Origin: Eubacterium sp. | Lineage (GTDB): Bacteria; Bacillota; Clostridia; Lachnospirales; Lachnospiraceae | Direction: 5' to 3' | Length of the DNA stretch: 59,727 bases | Assembly (NCBI GenBank): GCA_017420535.1 | Contig: JAFOIV010000061.1 | Span: forward strand, 1 to 59,727 | In this document: positions 53,002 through 58,548 of the stretch, piece after piece | Layout of the letters: every line of letters begins with the position of its first letter | How positions within the stretch are numbered: position 1 is the stretch's first letter | Notes under the pieces: model-generated | The model's database searches: none | Seen by the model: only the letters and a program-made list of their open reading frames with translations | What the model was told of the DNA's origin: nothing | Program-made: the position numbers and the translations under genes

Positions 53002-54531
53002 TTATTTTGAAACTACTGGAAGGGTTTCCAATAATTTGCGGTCAATCTTGCCATTCTTGTTAAGAATAAATTCTGTAACATGAATGAATTTGTTAGGAAC
53101 CATGTATAATGGAAGTCTCTTCTTTACTTCAACATGAAGCTCTCTTCCTTCTCTTTCTCCGGTGTAATAAAGATAAATCCTGCTTTTTTCTTCATCATAC
53201 CTGGCGCAGCATCTTTCTACGCCCTCATATGTTCCTATAGTTCTTTCGATTTCCTCAAGCTCGATCCTATGACCCATATGCTTGATCTGGAAATCTTTTC
53301 TTCCTGCAAAGTACATTTCTCCATCATCTGCGATAAAAGCCACATCACCTGTAAGGTAAGTTCTGACAGAACCACCTTCCACAGTTCTTTCCTGGAAATG
53401 TTTCTTTGTTTCTTCTTCGTTATGATAATAACCAATTGCAAGGGACTCACCACTTACGGCGATCTCTCCGCTTACATTTTTTTCTGTAATTTCCTGTCCT
53501 TTTTCATCTAAAAGAACAACTTTTCTGCCTTCAAAAACTTTACCAAGCGGGAGCTTTTCACCAGCTTCCACCTTGTGATCTATAATATAGTAGGTGCAGT
53601 TACAGGTAATTTCTGATGGGCCATAAAGGTTGACATACATAACAGTAGGGAGGGCCTTCTGCCAGATCATCAACTGTTTAGTTGGCATTACTTCTCCGCT
53701 GAAAAGAACTCTCTTTAAATCAGTAGGGAGACGATAATCGAGTCCTTTCATACCGGAAATGATACATAATGCTGAAACAGCCCAGGTTAAGGTTGTTGCA
53801 TGGTTATCGCATATATAATCCACGAGTCTAGGGGGTTGAGTAAAGTAATCCCGTGGAATGAGGAGAAGGGAGGCTCCAGTCATTAACGCTGTGAATATAT
53901 CCTTAATGGATACATCAAAGTCAAATGGAGCTTGATTTGCGATAACATCTGAGGGAGTAAAAGCAAAAGCTTTTATGAAATGACTAATAAAATCTATAAC
54001 TGCCCCCTGACTTACAAGTACACACTTTGGTGTACCTGTCGAACCAGAGGTAAATATGCCATAAATAGGGTTTTCTTTAGTCACACAGTAAGACTCTAAA
54101 CAATTCTCTTCAGAACTGTATGATTCAGCAACTATCTCTTCCATTGAAACAGCCATACCTTCGTATCCTGTTTCCCTGAACTTTTCCTCAAGGTCCTCTG
54201 TATATATGATAAGACGAGGTTCGAGTACTTCTATTATCTTATTGATTCTTGAAACAGTCTGTTCAGGATTGATATATACATAGAAACCTCCAGCATACAT
54301 AGTTCCAAGAACTGCTCCATAAAGATTAATATTTTTTTCTGTAAAGATTGCTACTGGAAAACCTGTTTCTTCTTTATCCAGACATGCTTTCTTTCTAATA
54401 TTCTTACCCATCCTTACAGCTAATTCTTTAAGCTCCTGATAGTTCAGTTTTCTCTCGGGATCGATAGCTGCTATATTATTTGGATAATCATTTACTGTTT
54501 TTTCAAATATCTGAATTAAATTCTCTTTCAT
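53002..54531 (-). CDS. DltA-like amino acid adenylation/carrier-loading enzyme
   Basis: A 509-aa ANL-superfamily enzyme, close in length to DltA (about 505). It activates an amino acid with ATP and loads it on the neighbouring carrier protein. Core motifs: GIFTSGSTGTPK (A3), NLYGPSEITCN (A5), YLTGDVAF (A7), GRKDFQIKHMGHRIELEEIE (A8) and NKNGKIDRK (A10). The Asp that grips the substrate amine is present (PFDFDVS, D206). The Cys found in Bacillus DltA in the FCGE segment is Ser278 here (LFSGEVMP), so specificity may differ from D-alanine. It is the last gene of the MBOAT-SGNH-decarboxylase-carrier operon. Confidence 0.85.
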   Translation of the reverse strand: MKENLIQIFEKTVNDYPNNIAAIDPERKLNYQELKELAVRMGKNIRKKACLDKEETGFPVAIFTEKNINLYGAVLGTMYAGGFYVYINPEQTVSRINKIIEVLEPRLIIYTEDLEEKFRETGYEGMAVSMEEIVAESYSSEENCLESYCVTKENPIYGIFTSGSTGTPKCVLVSQGAVIDFISHFIKAFAFTPSDVIANQAPFDFDVSIKDIFTALMTGASLLLIPRDYFTQPPRLVDYICDNHATTLTWAVSALCIISGMKGLDYRLPTDLKRVLFSGEVMPTKQLMIWQKALPTVMYVNLYGPSEITCNCTYYIIDHKVEAGEKLPLGKVFEGRKVVLLDEKGQEITEKNVSGEIAVSGESLAIGYYHNEEETKKHFQERTVEGGSVRTYLTGDVAFIADDGEMYFAGRKDFQIKHMGHRIELEEIERTIGTYEGVERCCARYDEEKSRIYLYYTGEREGRELHVEVKKRLPLYMVPNKFIHVTEFILNKNGKIDRKLLETLPVVSK

Positions 54532-54578
54532 ATTGCCACTTCTTTCTTATAGCATGACTATAAGATTTTTATCTAAAA

Positions 54579-54812
54579 TTATTCAGCAAGACGCTCTACC
54601 ATTGCAGCAAGTGCATCAACTGAGTTGAAATTTTCTGGGATCATTTCTTCTGCACCTATCTGAATATCAAAGTTATCTTCTAATTCAGCAACAAGTGAGA
54701 TGATACCAAATGAATCAAGGAGATGATCATCAACTAATCTATCCTCGTTTTCATAATCAATACTGTCGTCAATCTCGCTTAAAATATCAATAATCTGTTC
54801 TCTTGTTTCCAT
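54579..54812 (-). CDS. DltC-like carrier protein
   Basis: A 77-aa acyl/peptidyl carrier protein, the size of DltC. The phosphopantetheine serine is S34 in LLDSFGIISLV. It is acidic, with a C-terminal DALAAMVERLAE helix. AAAAGGAG precedes the ATG. It lies between the decarboxylase-like and adenylation genes; it would carry the activated residue as a thioester to the membrane MBOAT enzyme. Confidence 0.88.
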   Translation of the reverse strand: METREQIIDILSEIDDSIDYENEDRLVDDHLLDSFGIISLVAELEDNFDIQIGAEEMIPENFNSVDALAAMVERLAE

Positions 54813-54817
54813 TGTAA

Positions 54818-56005
54818 TTAACTCCTTTTTACTGTATTAAATGGATATGTCAAAATGTCTTTTCTCATTACTGTTAAGCCCTCCTTAACTGAATAACCGT
54901 ATACATCCGGCAATTCATGAGAAAGGAATAATGCCATACCTTCTGCAAAAGAATAAGCTCCTGCATTCTTAAATATCAGAGCGTCTCCAACCCTGACATC
55001 TCCCAGCTTAATATTTGCAGTCAAAACATCATTCATTGTACAAAGTGAACCACATACTGTCCACACTTTTTCTGGATCAAGATCTTCATGATCTCTTATA
55101 ACTTCCATAAAAGGATGATACATTCCTTTTATCTGACCATCATAAGCTAACTGATGGATTCCACCATCTGTCATAAGATAATCTGTATCTATATTTTTCT
55201 TAACATCAAGAACTCTTGTACAGTAACAACCTGAAACAGCTGCTATAGCTCTTCCAAGCTCTATAGTAACACTGCCACTAAAGTCCATGTCGTTGATGGT
55301 ACTGCTGATAGTATCAAGGAAATCTTCCATTGGAAGAACGTCCTTGCCTTCAAAATATGAATAAGGGATTCCAGGACCATATTCTAATTCTTCTATATCA
55401 AGTCCTGTTAGTTCCTTTATCTCTTTGATAAGTTCATCCAGCATAAGAAGCTCTTTCTTATCCTTATCCGGATGCTTCTTCTGAGTACCAGAGAAATAAT
55501 GGATTCCCTTTACATTAAGGCCTTCCACATTCTTTGATTCTCTTATCATCTCTAAGATATCTTCTTTATTTACACCAAACTGACTCTTATTAGTAAGTCT
55601 AATTATGATATTTATCTTTCTATCCTTAGCAGCATCTTTTAACTGAAGGAACTGATTCCAAGACTCAACAGTAAAAATGCATCTAGCATCAGTCTCATTT
55701 ATGATAGTCGCTAAGTCTTCTTTTTTCTTTAATACTCCTGAGATAAGGAGCTTCTCATGAGGGATCTTAAGATCTCTGCAGATCTCATATTCTCCATATG
55801 AGCAGACTTCAATCCTGTCTAAAACCCTTGCGGCAACTCCTGTAAGAAAAGGATTTGCTTTCATGGCATAGCATACTTTAGCACTGCCTTTAAGTCCTTC
55901 TTCAATCCTTCTAATTCTTGCCTCAAATATATCAAAATCAAATAAATAAAATGGATTATTCTCTTTTCTAGCAATCTCAATTGCCTTATCAATATTCATT
56001 TCCAT
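54818..56005 (-). CDS. PLP-dependent decarboxylase-like enzyme (fold type III) inside a dlt-like operon
   Basis: A 395-aa alanine-racemase-fold enzyme of the DAP/ornithine/carboxynorspermidine decarboxylase group. The PLP Lys is K49 in VCYAMKANP; further sites are GIHYFSGT, ELGRAIAA (the EPGR block with Leu for Pro), VCGSLCTMNDVL (Cys-x2-4-Asp of the active site) and FKNAGAYSFA (substrate-site Tyr). It is not the usual DAP decarboxylase by context: it sits between the SGNH and carrier genes with gaps of 2 and 5 bases, so it should make or modify the residue that the cassette transfers. Substrate unknown; a racemase role is less likely. Confidence 0.78.
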   Translation of the reverse strand: MEMNIDKAIEIARKENNPFYLFDFDIFEARIRRIEEGLKGSAKVCYAMKANPFLTGVAARVLDRIEVCSYGEYEICRDLKIPHEKLLISGVLKKKEDLATIINETDARCIFTVESWNQFLQLKDAAKDRKINIIIRLTNKSQFGVNKEDILEMIRESKNVEGLNVKGIHYFSGTQKKHPDKDKKELLMLDELIKEIKELTGLDIEELEYGPGIPYSYFEGKDVLPMEDFLDTISSTINDMDFSGSVTIELGRAIAAVSGCYCTRVLDVKKNIDTDYLMTDGGIHQLAYDGQIKGMYHPFMEVIRDHEDLDPEKVWTVCGSLCTMNDVLTANIKLGDVRVGDALIFKNAGAYSFAEGMALFLSHELPDVYGYSVKEGLTVMRKDILTYPFNTVKRS

Positions 56006-56007
56006 GA

Positions 56008-56976
56008 CTAGATTCCATTTTTCCTCTCTGCGGCCTTATACTTCTCGAAAACTTTATGCCATTCTCTAAAGTTTTCATCATTTCTTCTATCTTTTAAAAT
56101 GCCATAAGAATCAATCTTCCTGGCGATAAAAACTGTTGTCTTTTTAGTTCCATAAGAATTAAGATGATCCCCTTTATCTCTGGTATCCTTGCTCCAGTTG
56201 ATATTAAGGCTTTCTTTTTCCTTATTAAGATCTATATAATCAATGCCATACTTATCAGCAAATTCATTAATTGCATTGATTTTTTCCATGTTGTAGCACT
56301 TTGGAGATGGAGCTGAATAAAGAATCAGCTTTACACCATTTTCGTCACAAAGTTTCTTTATCTTTTTAAATGTTTCTTCATTTTCTTTAGGGATAGTTCT
56401 CTTCTTATCTGTGCTGAAAAGATATTCACCACCCTTATAAGCTTTAACCTTTGTACTAAAAACGTATCCCTTATATGAGTCCCCAAGTCTTGAAACAAAT
56501 GGAGTCTTCCATACATTGTGATACTTAAATACAGGGCAAGCCTTATAAACCACTTCTGCGATCCTGGAATCTTTTCCAGATTCTTTAGTTTTTCTATAGA
56601 GCTCATTTGTCTCTAACAAAGCCATCTTTGGATGCTGTTTTTCAAGTGATATCTCTAACACTTCCAATGTCTCATTGATATTCTGTCCAGGAGCTCCGGC
56701 ATCAAAAACTGCATAACCATATTCCTCCCAGATCTGCATTGGAGATACTGTTGTATAACTAAGACTGTCACCAAGAACAATCACATCAATAGTATCATTT
56801 TTTTCATTTGCTACTTTTGCATATACTTCATTTCTTCCAAGATTCAACTCATGTTTAGTCATAAACTCAGGAGATAATATATAGCTTGGAATATAAAGTA
56901 ATATAAGAAGGATCCCTGTAAAAAGGAAACATCTTGCTATGAAGTTTTTCTTAATACTATTTTTTAATTTCTTCAT
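56008..56976 (-). CDS. SGNH/DltD-like envelope acyltransferase or esterase
   Basis: A 322-aa protein anchored by one N-terminal helix (about 13-34). The catalytic Ser is S71 in VLGDSLSYT and the late Asp/His pair is in DKGDHLNSYGT near residue 275. It has the position of DltD and of AlgJ/AlgX in O-acyl transfer pathways and would act outside the membrane, passing the acyl group to the polymer. GAGGTAATA precedes the ATG. It lies 15 bases after the MBOAT gene. Confidence 0.8.
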   Translation of the reverse strand: MKKLKNSIKKNFIARCFLFTGILLILLYIPSYILSPEFMTKHELNLGRNEVYAKVANEKNDTIDVIVLGDSLSYTTVSPMQIWEEYGYAVFDAGAPGQNINETLEVLEISLEKQHPKMALLETNELYRKTKESGKDSRIAEVVYKACPVFKYHNVWKTPFVSRLGDSYKGYVFSTKVKAYKGGEYLFSTDKKRTIPKENEETFKKIKKLCDENGVKLILYSAPSPKCYNMEKINAINEFADKYGIDYIDLNKEKESLNINWSKDTRDKGDHLNSYGTKKTTVFIARKIDSYGILKDRRNDENFREWHKVFEKYKAAERKNGI

Positions 56977-56991
56977 TATTACCTCAATTTA

Positions 56992-58548
56992 CTAAAATCC
57001 TGCATAAATAAGATCTACTGGCTGATATCCTGCTCCATAGGCACCAAACCATACGATTGCAAGGATAAGTGCATAATATATAGCCCATCTTCTTTTTAAA
57101 GGAAGCTCAGGGACATCATCCAACAACATAGGTTTCTTCTCTAACATAAGATCAACAATTGCTACTACGATTATTCCCAGCATACAAATTGCATAATCTC
57201 CTGAATCAAGTCCTAAATTCATGTTATGAAGTTCTATATTTTTAAAGAAATCTGCTTCAAAGAGATTTCTCATCATTTCCTTAAACTGTGCAAAGCTCTC
57301 AGCTCTAAATAACACCTCACCTACACCAATGATGATCCAGGTTCTTGCTATTCTAAACCATCTGACAGGCTTACTCTTTTCATCAAGATGAAGTACATTT
57401 GCTATACCTGAACCAGCAGGCTTCCACATTTCTCCCACCAGGAGAACTATAAAGTAAAATACGCCATAAAGTATGTATGTTTCTTTAGGCCCATGCCAAA
57501 GTCCATTTAACATCCACACAGGGAAAAGAGCTATGGCTGATGTAACTATCATTGTCCAGTATTTAGAACAATGCTTTTTACCAAACTTATTCCATTTCTT
57601 CATCATCTGACTTGTAGATACCGGATAGAAGATATAGTTCTTAAACCATACACCAAGTGAGATGTGCCATCTTCTCCAGAATTCAGCTGCATTCTCCGAG
57701 AGAAATGGCTGACGGAAGTTCTCTGGAAGCCTGATATCAAATAACTCAGCGCTTCCAATAACAATATCGATTGTTCCCGAGAATTCCAAATAAAGCTGAA
57801 TTGTTACTACAAATGCTGTTATAATAATCATTGCGCCGGCATAATGCTTATTTGGTGAGAATAATGTATTAACCATGGTATTAAGTCGATCTGCAATAAG
57901 CATTCTCTTAAAAAGTCCCCATCCTATACGGACAGCACCCCTCGCAAAGGTTTTCTCCGTAATAGGATTTCCTTCAAAGAGCTGACTCTTCATATCATCC
58001 CATCTCATTATTGGGCCTTCCATAAGTGTTGGGAAAAACGTCATAAATAAAAAGACATGGAGGAAATTTTTCTCAACTTTTATCCTCTTCCAGTAAACAT
58101 CCAGAAGGTAGCCCACAGCCTGCAGTGTATAGAAAGAAATACCAATAGGTATTGCCAGCTTTCTAATTGAAAATGTTGTTTTGAACAACTTGTTGATCTC
58201 TTCAACAGTAAACTGAGTATATTTAAGGAAAACTAAAATTCCAACTGTTATAAACACACTTAAGAATACAACCCTAAATGCCTTCTTCTGCAATTTTTCT
58301 TTTTCTATCTTTTCAGTTTTTGGAAGCTCTTTCATTTCAGCATTAAAATGATCAATAATAAGTCCTCCAAAGTAAGTTACTATTGTGGTGATCAAACACC
58401 AAAGGATCAAATATTTACTTATCAGTGTAAAAAATACTCCACTTGCAATAAGAAGAGTTATATATCTATATTTCTTTGGGGTAAGCATATAGAAAAGCAT
58501 TACCACCGGAAGAAAATATATAAAATATGTATTAGTATTATATGCCAT
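56992..58548 (-). CDS. MBOAT O-acyltransferase (DltB/AlgI-like) with C-terminal YxxF
   Basis: A 518-aa polytopic protein with about eleven helices. MBOAT signatures are FWRRWHISLGVWFKNYIFYP (H295) and NGLWHGPKETY (catalytic H352). It would move the acyl group from carrier protein through the membrane. The protein ends VDLIYAGF, a Y-x-x-F C-terminus resembling that of the small protein DltX; no separate dltX gene is present in the operon. AAGGAG precedes the ATG. It is the first gene of the dlt-like operon, following a terminator hairpin. Confidence 0.88.
   Translation of the reverse strand: MAYNTNTYFIYFLPVVMLFYMLTPKKYRYITLLIASGVFFTLISKYLILWCLITTIVTYFGGLIIDHFNAEMKELPKTEKIEKEKLQKKAFRVVFLSVFITVGILVFLKYTQFTVEEINKLFKTTFSIRKLAIPIGISFYTLQAVGYLLDVYWKRIKVEKNFLHVFLFMTFFPTLMEGPIMRWDDMKSQLFEGNPITEKTFARGAVRIGWGLFKRMLIADRLNTMVNTLFSPNKHYAGAMIIITAFVVTIQLYLEFSGTIDIVIGSAELFDIRLPENFRQPFLSENAAEFWRRWHISLGVWFKNYIFYPVSTSQMMKKWNKFGKKHCSKYWTMIVTSAIALFPVWMLNGLWHGPKETYILYGVFYFIVLLVGEMWKPAGSGIANVLHLDEKSKPVRWFRIARTWIIIGVGEVLFRAESFAQFKEMMRNLFEADFFKNIELHNMNLGLDSGDYAICMLGIIVVAIVDLMLEKKPMLLDDVPELPLKRRWAIYYALILAIVWFGAYGAGYQPVDLIYAGF

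Follow-up and report, generated by a model that had tools for sequence, protein, structure and literature searches.

A Dlt-like gene cassette with a pyridoxal phosphate decarboxylase in Lachnospiraceae and its possible role in attaching a decarboxylated amino acid to a surface polymer

The five-gene cassette described here occupies positions 53002-58548 on the minus strand of a 59,727-nucleotide stretch of Eubacterium sp. DNA (Lachnospiraceae; contig JAFOIV010000061.1 of assembly GCA_017420535.1), which was analysed as a whole and is called the window below. It encodes an MBOAT O-acyltransferase, an SGNH-like protein, a pyridoxal phosphate (PLP)-dependent decarboxylase, a carrier protein and an adenylation enzyme, and it probably serves to load an acidic amino acid, to decarboxylate it on the carrier and to transfer the resulting omega-amino acyl group to oxygen atoms of a surface polymer. 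We assign a probability of about 0.6 to this reading; the more specific assumption that the substrate is glutamate, which would yield 4-aminobutyrate (GABA), falls somewhat short of an even chance. The genes, their conservation and co-occurrence, the replaced pocket, the decarboxylase signatures and the MBOAT tail are observations, and what we say on the substrate, the succession of reactions, the acceptor, the role in the cell and the activity is inferred from sequence comparisons. The initial annotation had described a tight operon, and all five reading frames as well as the intergenic gaps of 15, 2, 5 and 47 bases, counted from the MBOAT gene to the adenylation enzyme gene, were indeed recovered. 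It had also claimed that the transferred residue is not plain D-alanine, but is made with the help of the decarboxylase and attached to a surface polymer. This claim gains from the replaced substrate pocket, the best profile score falling on a BtrK-type enzyme, the separate lysA-like gene of the genome and the wide conservation of the cassette, while the particular amino acid and polymer are deductions.

In the proposed pathway, the adenylation enzyme would activate a dicarboxylic amino acid, with L-glutamate at its gamma-carboxylate as first choice and aspartate at its beta-carboxylate as the next, and load it onto the carrier protein. In the manner of BtrK and VinO, the PLP decarboxylase would strip the free alpha-carboxylate from the carrier-bound amino acid, so that a thioester of 4-aminobutyrate (or of beta-alanine) remains. 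The MBOAT would move the acyl group across the membrane, probably via the tyrosine of its own C-terminal hexapeptide, which would replace DltX, and the SGNH-like protein would hand it over to a hydroxyl group of the surface polymer. The expected product is an ester of an omega-amino acyl group that bears a positive charge and stands in for D-alanine.

With an E value limit of 1e-30, the decarboxylase has relatives in 88 of the 397 Lachnospiraceae genomes searched, including that of the window. Outside the window, this corresponds to 88 places in 87 genomes (one genome containing two), which are referred to as the 88 loci and are defined by this threshold, leaving weaker relatives uncounted. 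On the same strand near the decarboxylase gene, these loci contain genes for an adenylation enzyme (85), a carrier protein (83), an MBOAT (71) and an SGNH-like protein (70), and 66 contain all of them, several of the misses being contig ends. Since the same genes co-recur across the family in several different orders, the grouping is not due to chance. In an extended set of 100 loci, the order adenylation enzyme-decarboxylase-carrier-MBOAT-SGNH is the most common one (46 loci), followed by MBOAT-SGNH-adenylation enzyme-decarboxylase-carrier (11 loci) and further orders, and the order of the window recurs only in the loci L003 and L004. The profiles used for this set derive from 46 loci that mostly belong to the set itself, so that the matches obtained with them are not independent. 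The 100 loci include two from Saprospiraceae with the decarboxylase alone (L009 and L010); two others with nothing but a decarboxylase match (L011, only 3.4 kb long, and L012) are outside the set. 

Outside the Lachnospiraceae, the cassette seems to be rare. A sample of 398 genomes of the phylum gave decarboxylase profile matches at E<=1e-60 in six, including the genome of the window and one other from the family; of the remaining four, two contain the whole cassette (L103 and L104) and two an incomplete version with the decarboxylase present (L105 and L106). The occurrence is also patchy, because a further genome from the same genus as the window (G160) yields no decarboxylase match at E<=1e-30.

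Substrate pocket and decarboxylase

The adenylation enzyme is related to DltA, and all its scores remain below the curated cut-offs: 306 bits for TIGR01733 (cut-off 317.4), and 289 and 278 bits for the DltA models (cut-offs 476 and 560, the latter precisely 559.85). In a small tree calculated without the domains of nonribosomal peptide synthetases (NRPS), the cassette enzymes form a clade (98/97) beside DltA (join 100/99), and the top match among solved chains is the NRPS linear gramicidin synthase, reached via two domains. The specificity codes, all read from alignment alone, were compared for 86 cassette enzymes, consisting of that of the window and 85 of the 88 labelled reading frames from 90 loci (the 88 plus L103 and L104); three short frames were left out for their length (L125, and L134 in two pieces). 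The window enzyme has the code D-V-K-T-L-S-L-C-N-K, ending with K495, and the general form D-[V/I]-K-x-x-S-x-C-N-K is shared by 77 of the 86 proteins. The others carry I-A-R-G-C-S-Q-A-S-K (six), D-A-K-C-A-V-L-G-[I/V]-K (two) or D-Y-Y-P-C-T-M-C-K-K (only L150). The six proteins with the second code (L078, L133, L139, L143, L144 and L146) do not have the usual Asp at position 235 and may perhaps use another substrate. The Lachnospiraceae locus L150 (5428-8644) is a separate case, combining a related decarboxylase with a VinN-like adenylation enzyme without an MBOAT nearby, and possibly represents a natural product cluster; its small reading frame was read as a carrier, and the carrier profile gave no match there.

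Compared to these enzymes, five of six DltA proteins from Lachnospiraceae show the code D-L-M-V-L-C-T-V-x-K and one D-L-F-V-I-C-T-G-A-K. Seven of the ten code positions of the window enzyme deviate from the usual DltA code, and none of the 86 cassette enzymes carries a DltA code. The D-alanine pocket has been described as being formed by Leu, Met, Cys268 and Thr297 (PMC8972799), and these residues align with V207, K210, I258 and L302 of the window protein. Plain D-alanylation was rejected on account of this pocket. Code position 239, which is K210 in the window protein, is occupied by Lys in 79, Arg in six and Tyr in one of the 86 enzymes, and the basic residue suggests a substrate with a second carboxylate. 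A basic residue at this position is also seen in adenylation domains for glutamate or iso-linked acidic amino acids. As the residue retained in the pocket would accommodate a second carboxylate, decarboxylation on the carrier is more likely than the use of free diamines, which the initial annotation had considered as substrates.

The decarboxylase points in the same direction. A single-sequence search of solved structures returned BtrK first (E=3.6e-25), followed by diaminopimelate (DAP) decarboxylase, and the family profile scored BtrK at 205 bits, 6knh at 176 and the next DAP decarboxylase at 175. Entry 6knh, which is labelled as a probable DAP decarboxylase in the structure table, is presumably SbnH. 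In an alignment of 89 decarboxylases from the 88 loci and the window, K49, E249 and R252 are invariant, and C322 within an LC[TS] motif, as in BtrK, is present in all 87 proteins covering this region, none of which shows LCE. K49 and C322 are the likely catalytic residues, as judged from this conservation. LCE is found in the DAP decarboxylase MjDAPDC and in the lysA-like gene of the same genome, as is the RPxxY motif, which serves to hold the distal end of DAP in DAP decarboxylases and is absent from all 89 cassette proteins. The window protein also stays far below the cut-off of the LysA model TIGR01048 (154.6 vs 297.9 bits); the separate lysA-like gene on another contig (C66) reaches 278.8 bits, itself below the cut-off. 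Ordinary lysine or polyamine synthesis as the function of the cassette decarboxylase is considered unlikely in view of this separate gene, the missing RPxxY motif and the persistent association with the cassette. A D-alanine-specific ligase next to a decarboxylase of lysine or polyamine synthesis, named in the initial annotation as the finding that would speak against it, is not what the sequences suggest.

The putative transfer pair, its possible regulation and the acceptor

The MBOAT scores 140.9 bits against the DltB model TIGR04091 (cut-off 375), and the family profile matches the DltB structures 8jem and 6bug at E values of about 1e-35. H295 and H352 are invariant in 31 sequences and look like the active residues His289 and His336 of DltB (PMC11035591). 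Of 83 MBOATs, which are those scoring >300 bits among 84 found in the 100 loci (L003 to L008 included), 81 have a C-terminal hexapeptide of the type LIYAGF or FIYAQF; the two others are L048, which reaches a contig end, and L128, for which no explanation was found, and the left-out MBOAT piece of L058 ends with LIYAGF as well. In DltX-type tails, the tyrosine carries the acyl group. Because the MBOAT tail resembles the DltX tail FLYFGF, which is needed for D-alanylation (PMC11035591), the MBOAT may itself provide the function of DltX.

The SGNH-like protein of the window, with a hydrophobic stretch starting at residue 10, shows a match to PF13472 below the cut-off (E=0.008), and no NCBIfam model, including that of DltD, is matched at E<=0.001. 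Its relatives do better, with E values for PF13472 of 0.01 or less in 11 of 31 and a best value of 1.8e-6. In 31 aligned sequences, G69 and H271 are invariant, S71 of the GDS motif and D267 occur in at least 90%, and the DxxxH motif is conserved. The conserved MBOAT histidines close to an SGNH-type protein, whose fold is assigned from weak profile matches, fit the pattern of MBOAT/SGNH envelope acylation systems. The cassette is classified as a variant of these systems and not as a Dlt member, because its adenylation enzyme scores below the DltA cut-off and lacks the DltA pocket. The carrier protein scores 46.6 bits with AmcB and 40.9 bits with DltC models, both under the cut-off, and S34 in the motif LDSF is the candidate phosphopantetheine attachment site.

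A response regulator or histidine kinase match was recorded among the next two same-strand downstream genes in 15 of 84 loci, and upstream in three, against a background of six matches to the regulator and none to the kinase in 500 genes lying farther away. As the loci are related and each query was a single protein, this two-component association is only suggestive. The dlt operon of S. aureus is known to be regulated by the two-component system GraRS (PMC12505958). As an observation regarding possible acceptor synthesis, a gene like L065:11768-13597 is located near the cassette in L065, L068 and L113; the protein of L065 was scanned and matches phosphoglycerol transferase models, all below the cut-off.

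Some loci also encode transglutaminase-like proteins. In two loci of one genus (L076:5741-8557 and L077:6716-10057), the decarboxylase is fused to a linker, a membrane-spanning stretch, surface-type segments (Ig-like/Rib) and a transglutaminase-like domain in which Cys, His and Asp residues are apparent. Separate transglutaminase-like genes lie inside the cassette in L118 (8805-9842, Pfam score just under the cut-off) and directly beside it in L006 (12123-13157) and L076 (12994-14487). A query derived from the fusions gave five matches at E<=1e-5 in the 100 loci, including the two fusions, and would miss more distant transglutaminases. A primary amine at the surface could be the partner of these proteins.

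Canonical DltA was detected at E<=1e-130 in 17 of the 397 Lachnospiraceae genomes, eight of them over the curated cut-off, so that the comparison with the 88 genomes containing the decarboxylase is a rough one with unequal thresholds (E<=1e-30 for the decarboxylase). The genome of the window contains no DltA match above the curated cut-off. Mutual exclusion of the cassette and canonical dlt is unsupported, since both occur together in four genomes (G082, G090, G152 and G388), with about 3.8 expected from the frequencies of 17 and 88 in 397. We tentatively consider, at odds clearly below even, that the cassette represents a widespread Lachnospiraceae counterpart of D-alanylation that forms 4-aminobutyryl or beta-alanyl esters, is more common than canonical dlt, and is tied in some lineages to a surface transglutaminase-like domain using the amine as attachment point. 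A survey tabulates eight gut commensals, most of them Lachnospiraceae, and lists a complete dltABCD for none of them (PMC10877564). If the cassette does the job of dlt with another amino acyl group, such surveys would miss the control of envelope charge in a major gut family, which would bear on the sensitivity of commensals to cationic peptides and on their immune recognition. It would also mean that the decarboxylation of carrier-bound amino acids, known from antibiotic synthesis, has been put to use in surface chemistry.

Alternative readings of the cassette

Several points weigh against the proposed load-and-decarboxylate reaction and surface transfer. In the decarboxylase tree, the cassette enzymes, the divergent L150 among them, occupy a long branch with an uncertain placement, which is drawn next to VinO-like enzymes (support 87/94, flagged for long branches) and not next to BtrK. 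VinN-like and XrtA enzymes have their basic residue at position 330 and not at 239, and their pockets are unlike those of the cassette. The code presumably resembles those of glutamate-loading NRPS domains, and a search of the open-access literature for four such codes returned no text. D206 (code position 235), which we take to bind the amino group beside the activated carboxylate, is retained in most members and would fit loading via the alpha-carboxylate as well; therefore, a conversion of DAP to lysine would also be compatible with the pocket. The genome contains three further MBOAT relatives (31-36% identity) elsewhere, and the presence of one PF00884 (sulfatase-family) protein, read as LtaS-like, is no proof that the polymer it would make serves as acceptor. 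An MBOAT is not nearby in 17 of the 88 loci, 13 of which have 5 kb or more of sequence flanking the decarboxylase gene on each side. Finally, no report of activity was found for any cassette member.

The retained D206 is also the starting point of an alternative in which DAP is loaded at one end and decarboxylated at the other while bound to the carrier, giving lysyl esters on the surface. The relationship of the enzyme to DAP decarboxylase, visible in the lysA model score, would fit this route, and K210 could bind the far carboxylate. Yet the motif that holds DAP in MjDAPDC and the genome's own LysA is lacking throughout the cassette enzymes, six members have lost Asp 235 and still retain the decarboxylase, and lysine could be loaded directly, which would make the route a detour without clear gain. 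We regard it as improbable.

The order of steps might be reversed, with the decarboxylase acting first on the free amino acid and the adenylation enzyme loading the finished omega-amino acid or amine. IdnL3 of incednine synthesis offers a precedent, as it decarboxylates free beta-glutamate and the amino acid so formed is used afterwards (PMC11284099). However, the basic residue conserved at position 239 points to a substrate that has kept its second carboxylate when it is loaded, and the best-scoring characterized decarboxylase uses a carrier-bound substrate, leaving little likelihood for this order.

It is also conceivable, at a low probability, that the adenylation enzyme, decarboxylase and carrier make a small secreted or lipid-linked product which is acylated by the MBOAT/SGNH pair, so that no polymer ester is formed. 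Trios of the BtrK and VinO type do make parts of antibiotics, and both L150, with its VinN-like enzyme, and the loci lacking a nearby MBOAT would agree with such a function. This is countered by the MBOAT and SGNH-like genes near the trio in most loci and by the almost universal DltX-like tail; moreover, among 46 clustered loci, the only families recurring in more than four besides the five of the cassette are regulators (15), kinases (13) and ABC transporters (7). An ordinary D-alanylation cassette next to an unrelated decarboxylase is very improbable: although DltA, DltB and DltC models all match and the adenylation enzymes branch beside DltA, the scores are well under the curated cut-offs, the DltA code is missing altogether, and an unrelated neighbour would hardly stay with the cassette through its different gene orders.

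Related systems and layout of the locus

Like dltXABCD, which confers D-alanylation of teichoic acids, the cassette unites within an operon the genes for an adenylation enzyme, a carrier, an MBOAT and a partner of the SGNH type. It also shares with dlt the DltX-like C-terminal motif and, in some genomes, two-component genes nearby. It differs by the adenylation pocket, the extra PLP decarboxylase, the placement of the DltX-like motif on the MBOAT itself and an SGNH-like protein that, in the window, gives no DltD match at E<=0.001.

The BtrI/BtrK system of butirosin synthesis offers the best-scoring solved structure for the cassette decarboxylase. Its carrier is loaded by BtrJ, an enzyme of the ATP-grasp type and not a DltA relative, and we know of no MBOAT or SGNH protein in this system. 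Unlike the proposed cassette function, BtrK serves antibiotic synthesis, converting glutamyl-S-BtrI to GABA-S-BtrI (PMC7857480). A similar logic of an acidic amino acid placed on a stand-alone carrier and decarboxylated there by a PLP enzyme is described for the VinN/VinO/VinL system, in which VinN loads 3-methylaspartate rather than its decarboxylated product on VinL, VinO decarboxylates it there and thioester formation must precede decarboxylation, and FlvN of fluvirucin B2 synthesis recognizes aspartate (PMC11284099); in contrast to the cassette, these systems yield polyketide starter units. Two Vin-like loci (L157 and L158) are located on Kitasatospora and Streptomyces plasmids together with genes annotated as methylaspartate mutase, and their adenylation code D-Y-Y-P-T-T-Q-R-I-K is unlike that of the cassette.

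The same three kinds of genes also occur in the trio associated with XrtA (exosortase A), comprising a TIGR03098 ligase, a TIGR03099 decarboxylase and a carrier. The window proteins reach only 161 of the required 592 bits with TIGR03098 and 148 of 478 bits with TIGR03099. On a Sinorhizobium plasmid (L156), such a trio lies side by side among glycosyltransferase genes, and no MBOAT/SGNH pair is annotated in the 19 kb read, for which the gene table is incomplete. Because the basic residue resides at position 239 in the cassette and at 330 in the VinN-like and XrtA enzymes, the cassette seems to have come to this scheme of loading followed by decarboxylation from a DltA-like enzyme. The proposal of an undescribed system holds in so far as no description of the five-gene cassette was found among the matches listed in searches of the open-access literature. 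Closely related trios of adenylation enzyme, decarboxylase and carrier are known elsewhere. One of the genomes sampled from the phylum, 7.3 Mb in size, shows a further arrangement (L106:7926-9488), in which a decarboxylase similar in sequence to TIGR03099 and lysA is encoded next to a carrier protein and further biosynthetic-looking genes.

Features of the cassette in the window, with the evidence for each assignment
Feature	Position	Strand	Basis
MBOAT O-acyltransferase, DltB-like, 518 aa	56992..58548	-	PF03062; TIGR04091 DltB 140.9 bits; DltB structures
MBOAT C-terminal hexapeptide LIYAGF, resembling DltX tail FLYFGF	56995..57012	-	such a tail in 81/83 MBOATs
SGNH-like protein in place of DltD, 322 aa, one N-terminal hydrophobic stretch	56008..56976	-	weak PF13472; conserved motifs
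Alanine-racemase-fold PLP decarboxylase, BtrK-like, 395 aa	54818..56005	-	PF02784/PF00278; BtrK structures 2j66/7ru7
Carrier protein, DltC/AmcB-like, 77 aa	54579..54812	-	PF00550
DltA-related adenylation enzyme, 509 aa	53002..54531	-	PF00501; TIGR01733; DltA models
Adenylation specificity pocket, residues 206-311	53599..53916	-	alignment with 6 family DltA and 85 cassette enzymes

Scans for promoters and terminators gave chance-level results only. The host genome comprises 2.67 Mb in 134 contigs and is 98% complete. An assembly chimera is unlikely, because some of the flanking genes are common to the window and to L003 (UBA3772) and L004 (RUG13451), two Lachnospiraceae metagenome assemblies whose decarboxylases are 93 and 91% identical to that of the window; the prefix RUG presumably stands for rumen genomes. 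Both share with the window a DUF624 gene upstream and GH3-like and GGDEF-type genes downstream, and L003 also retains a radical-SAM-type flanking gene, the last three names having been given by sequence reading rather than family searches.

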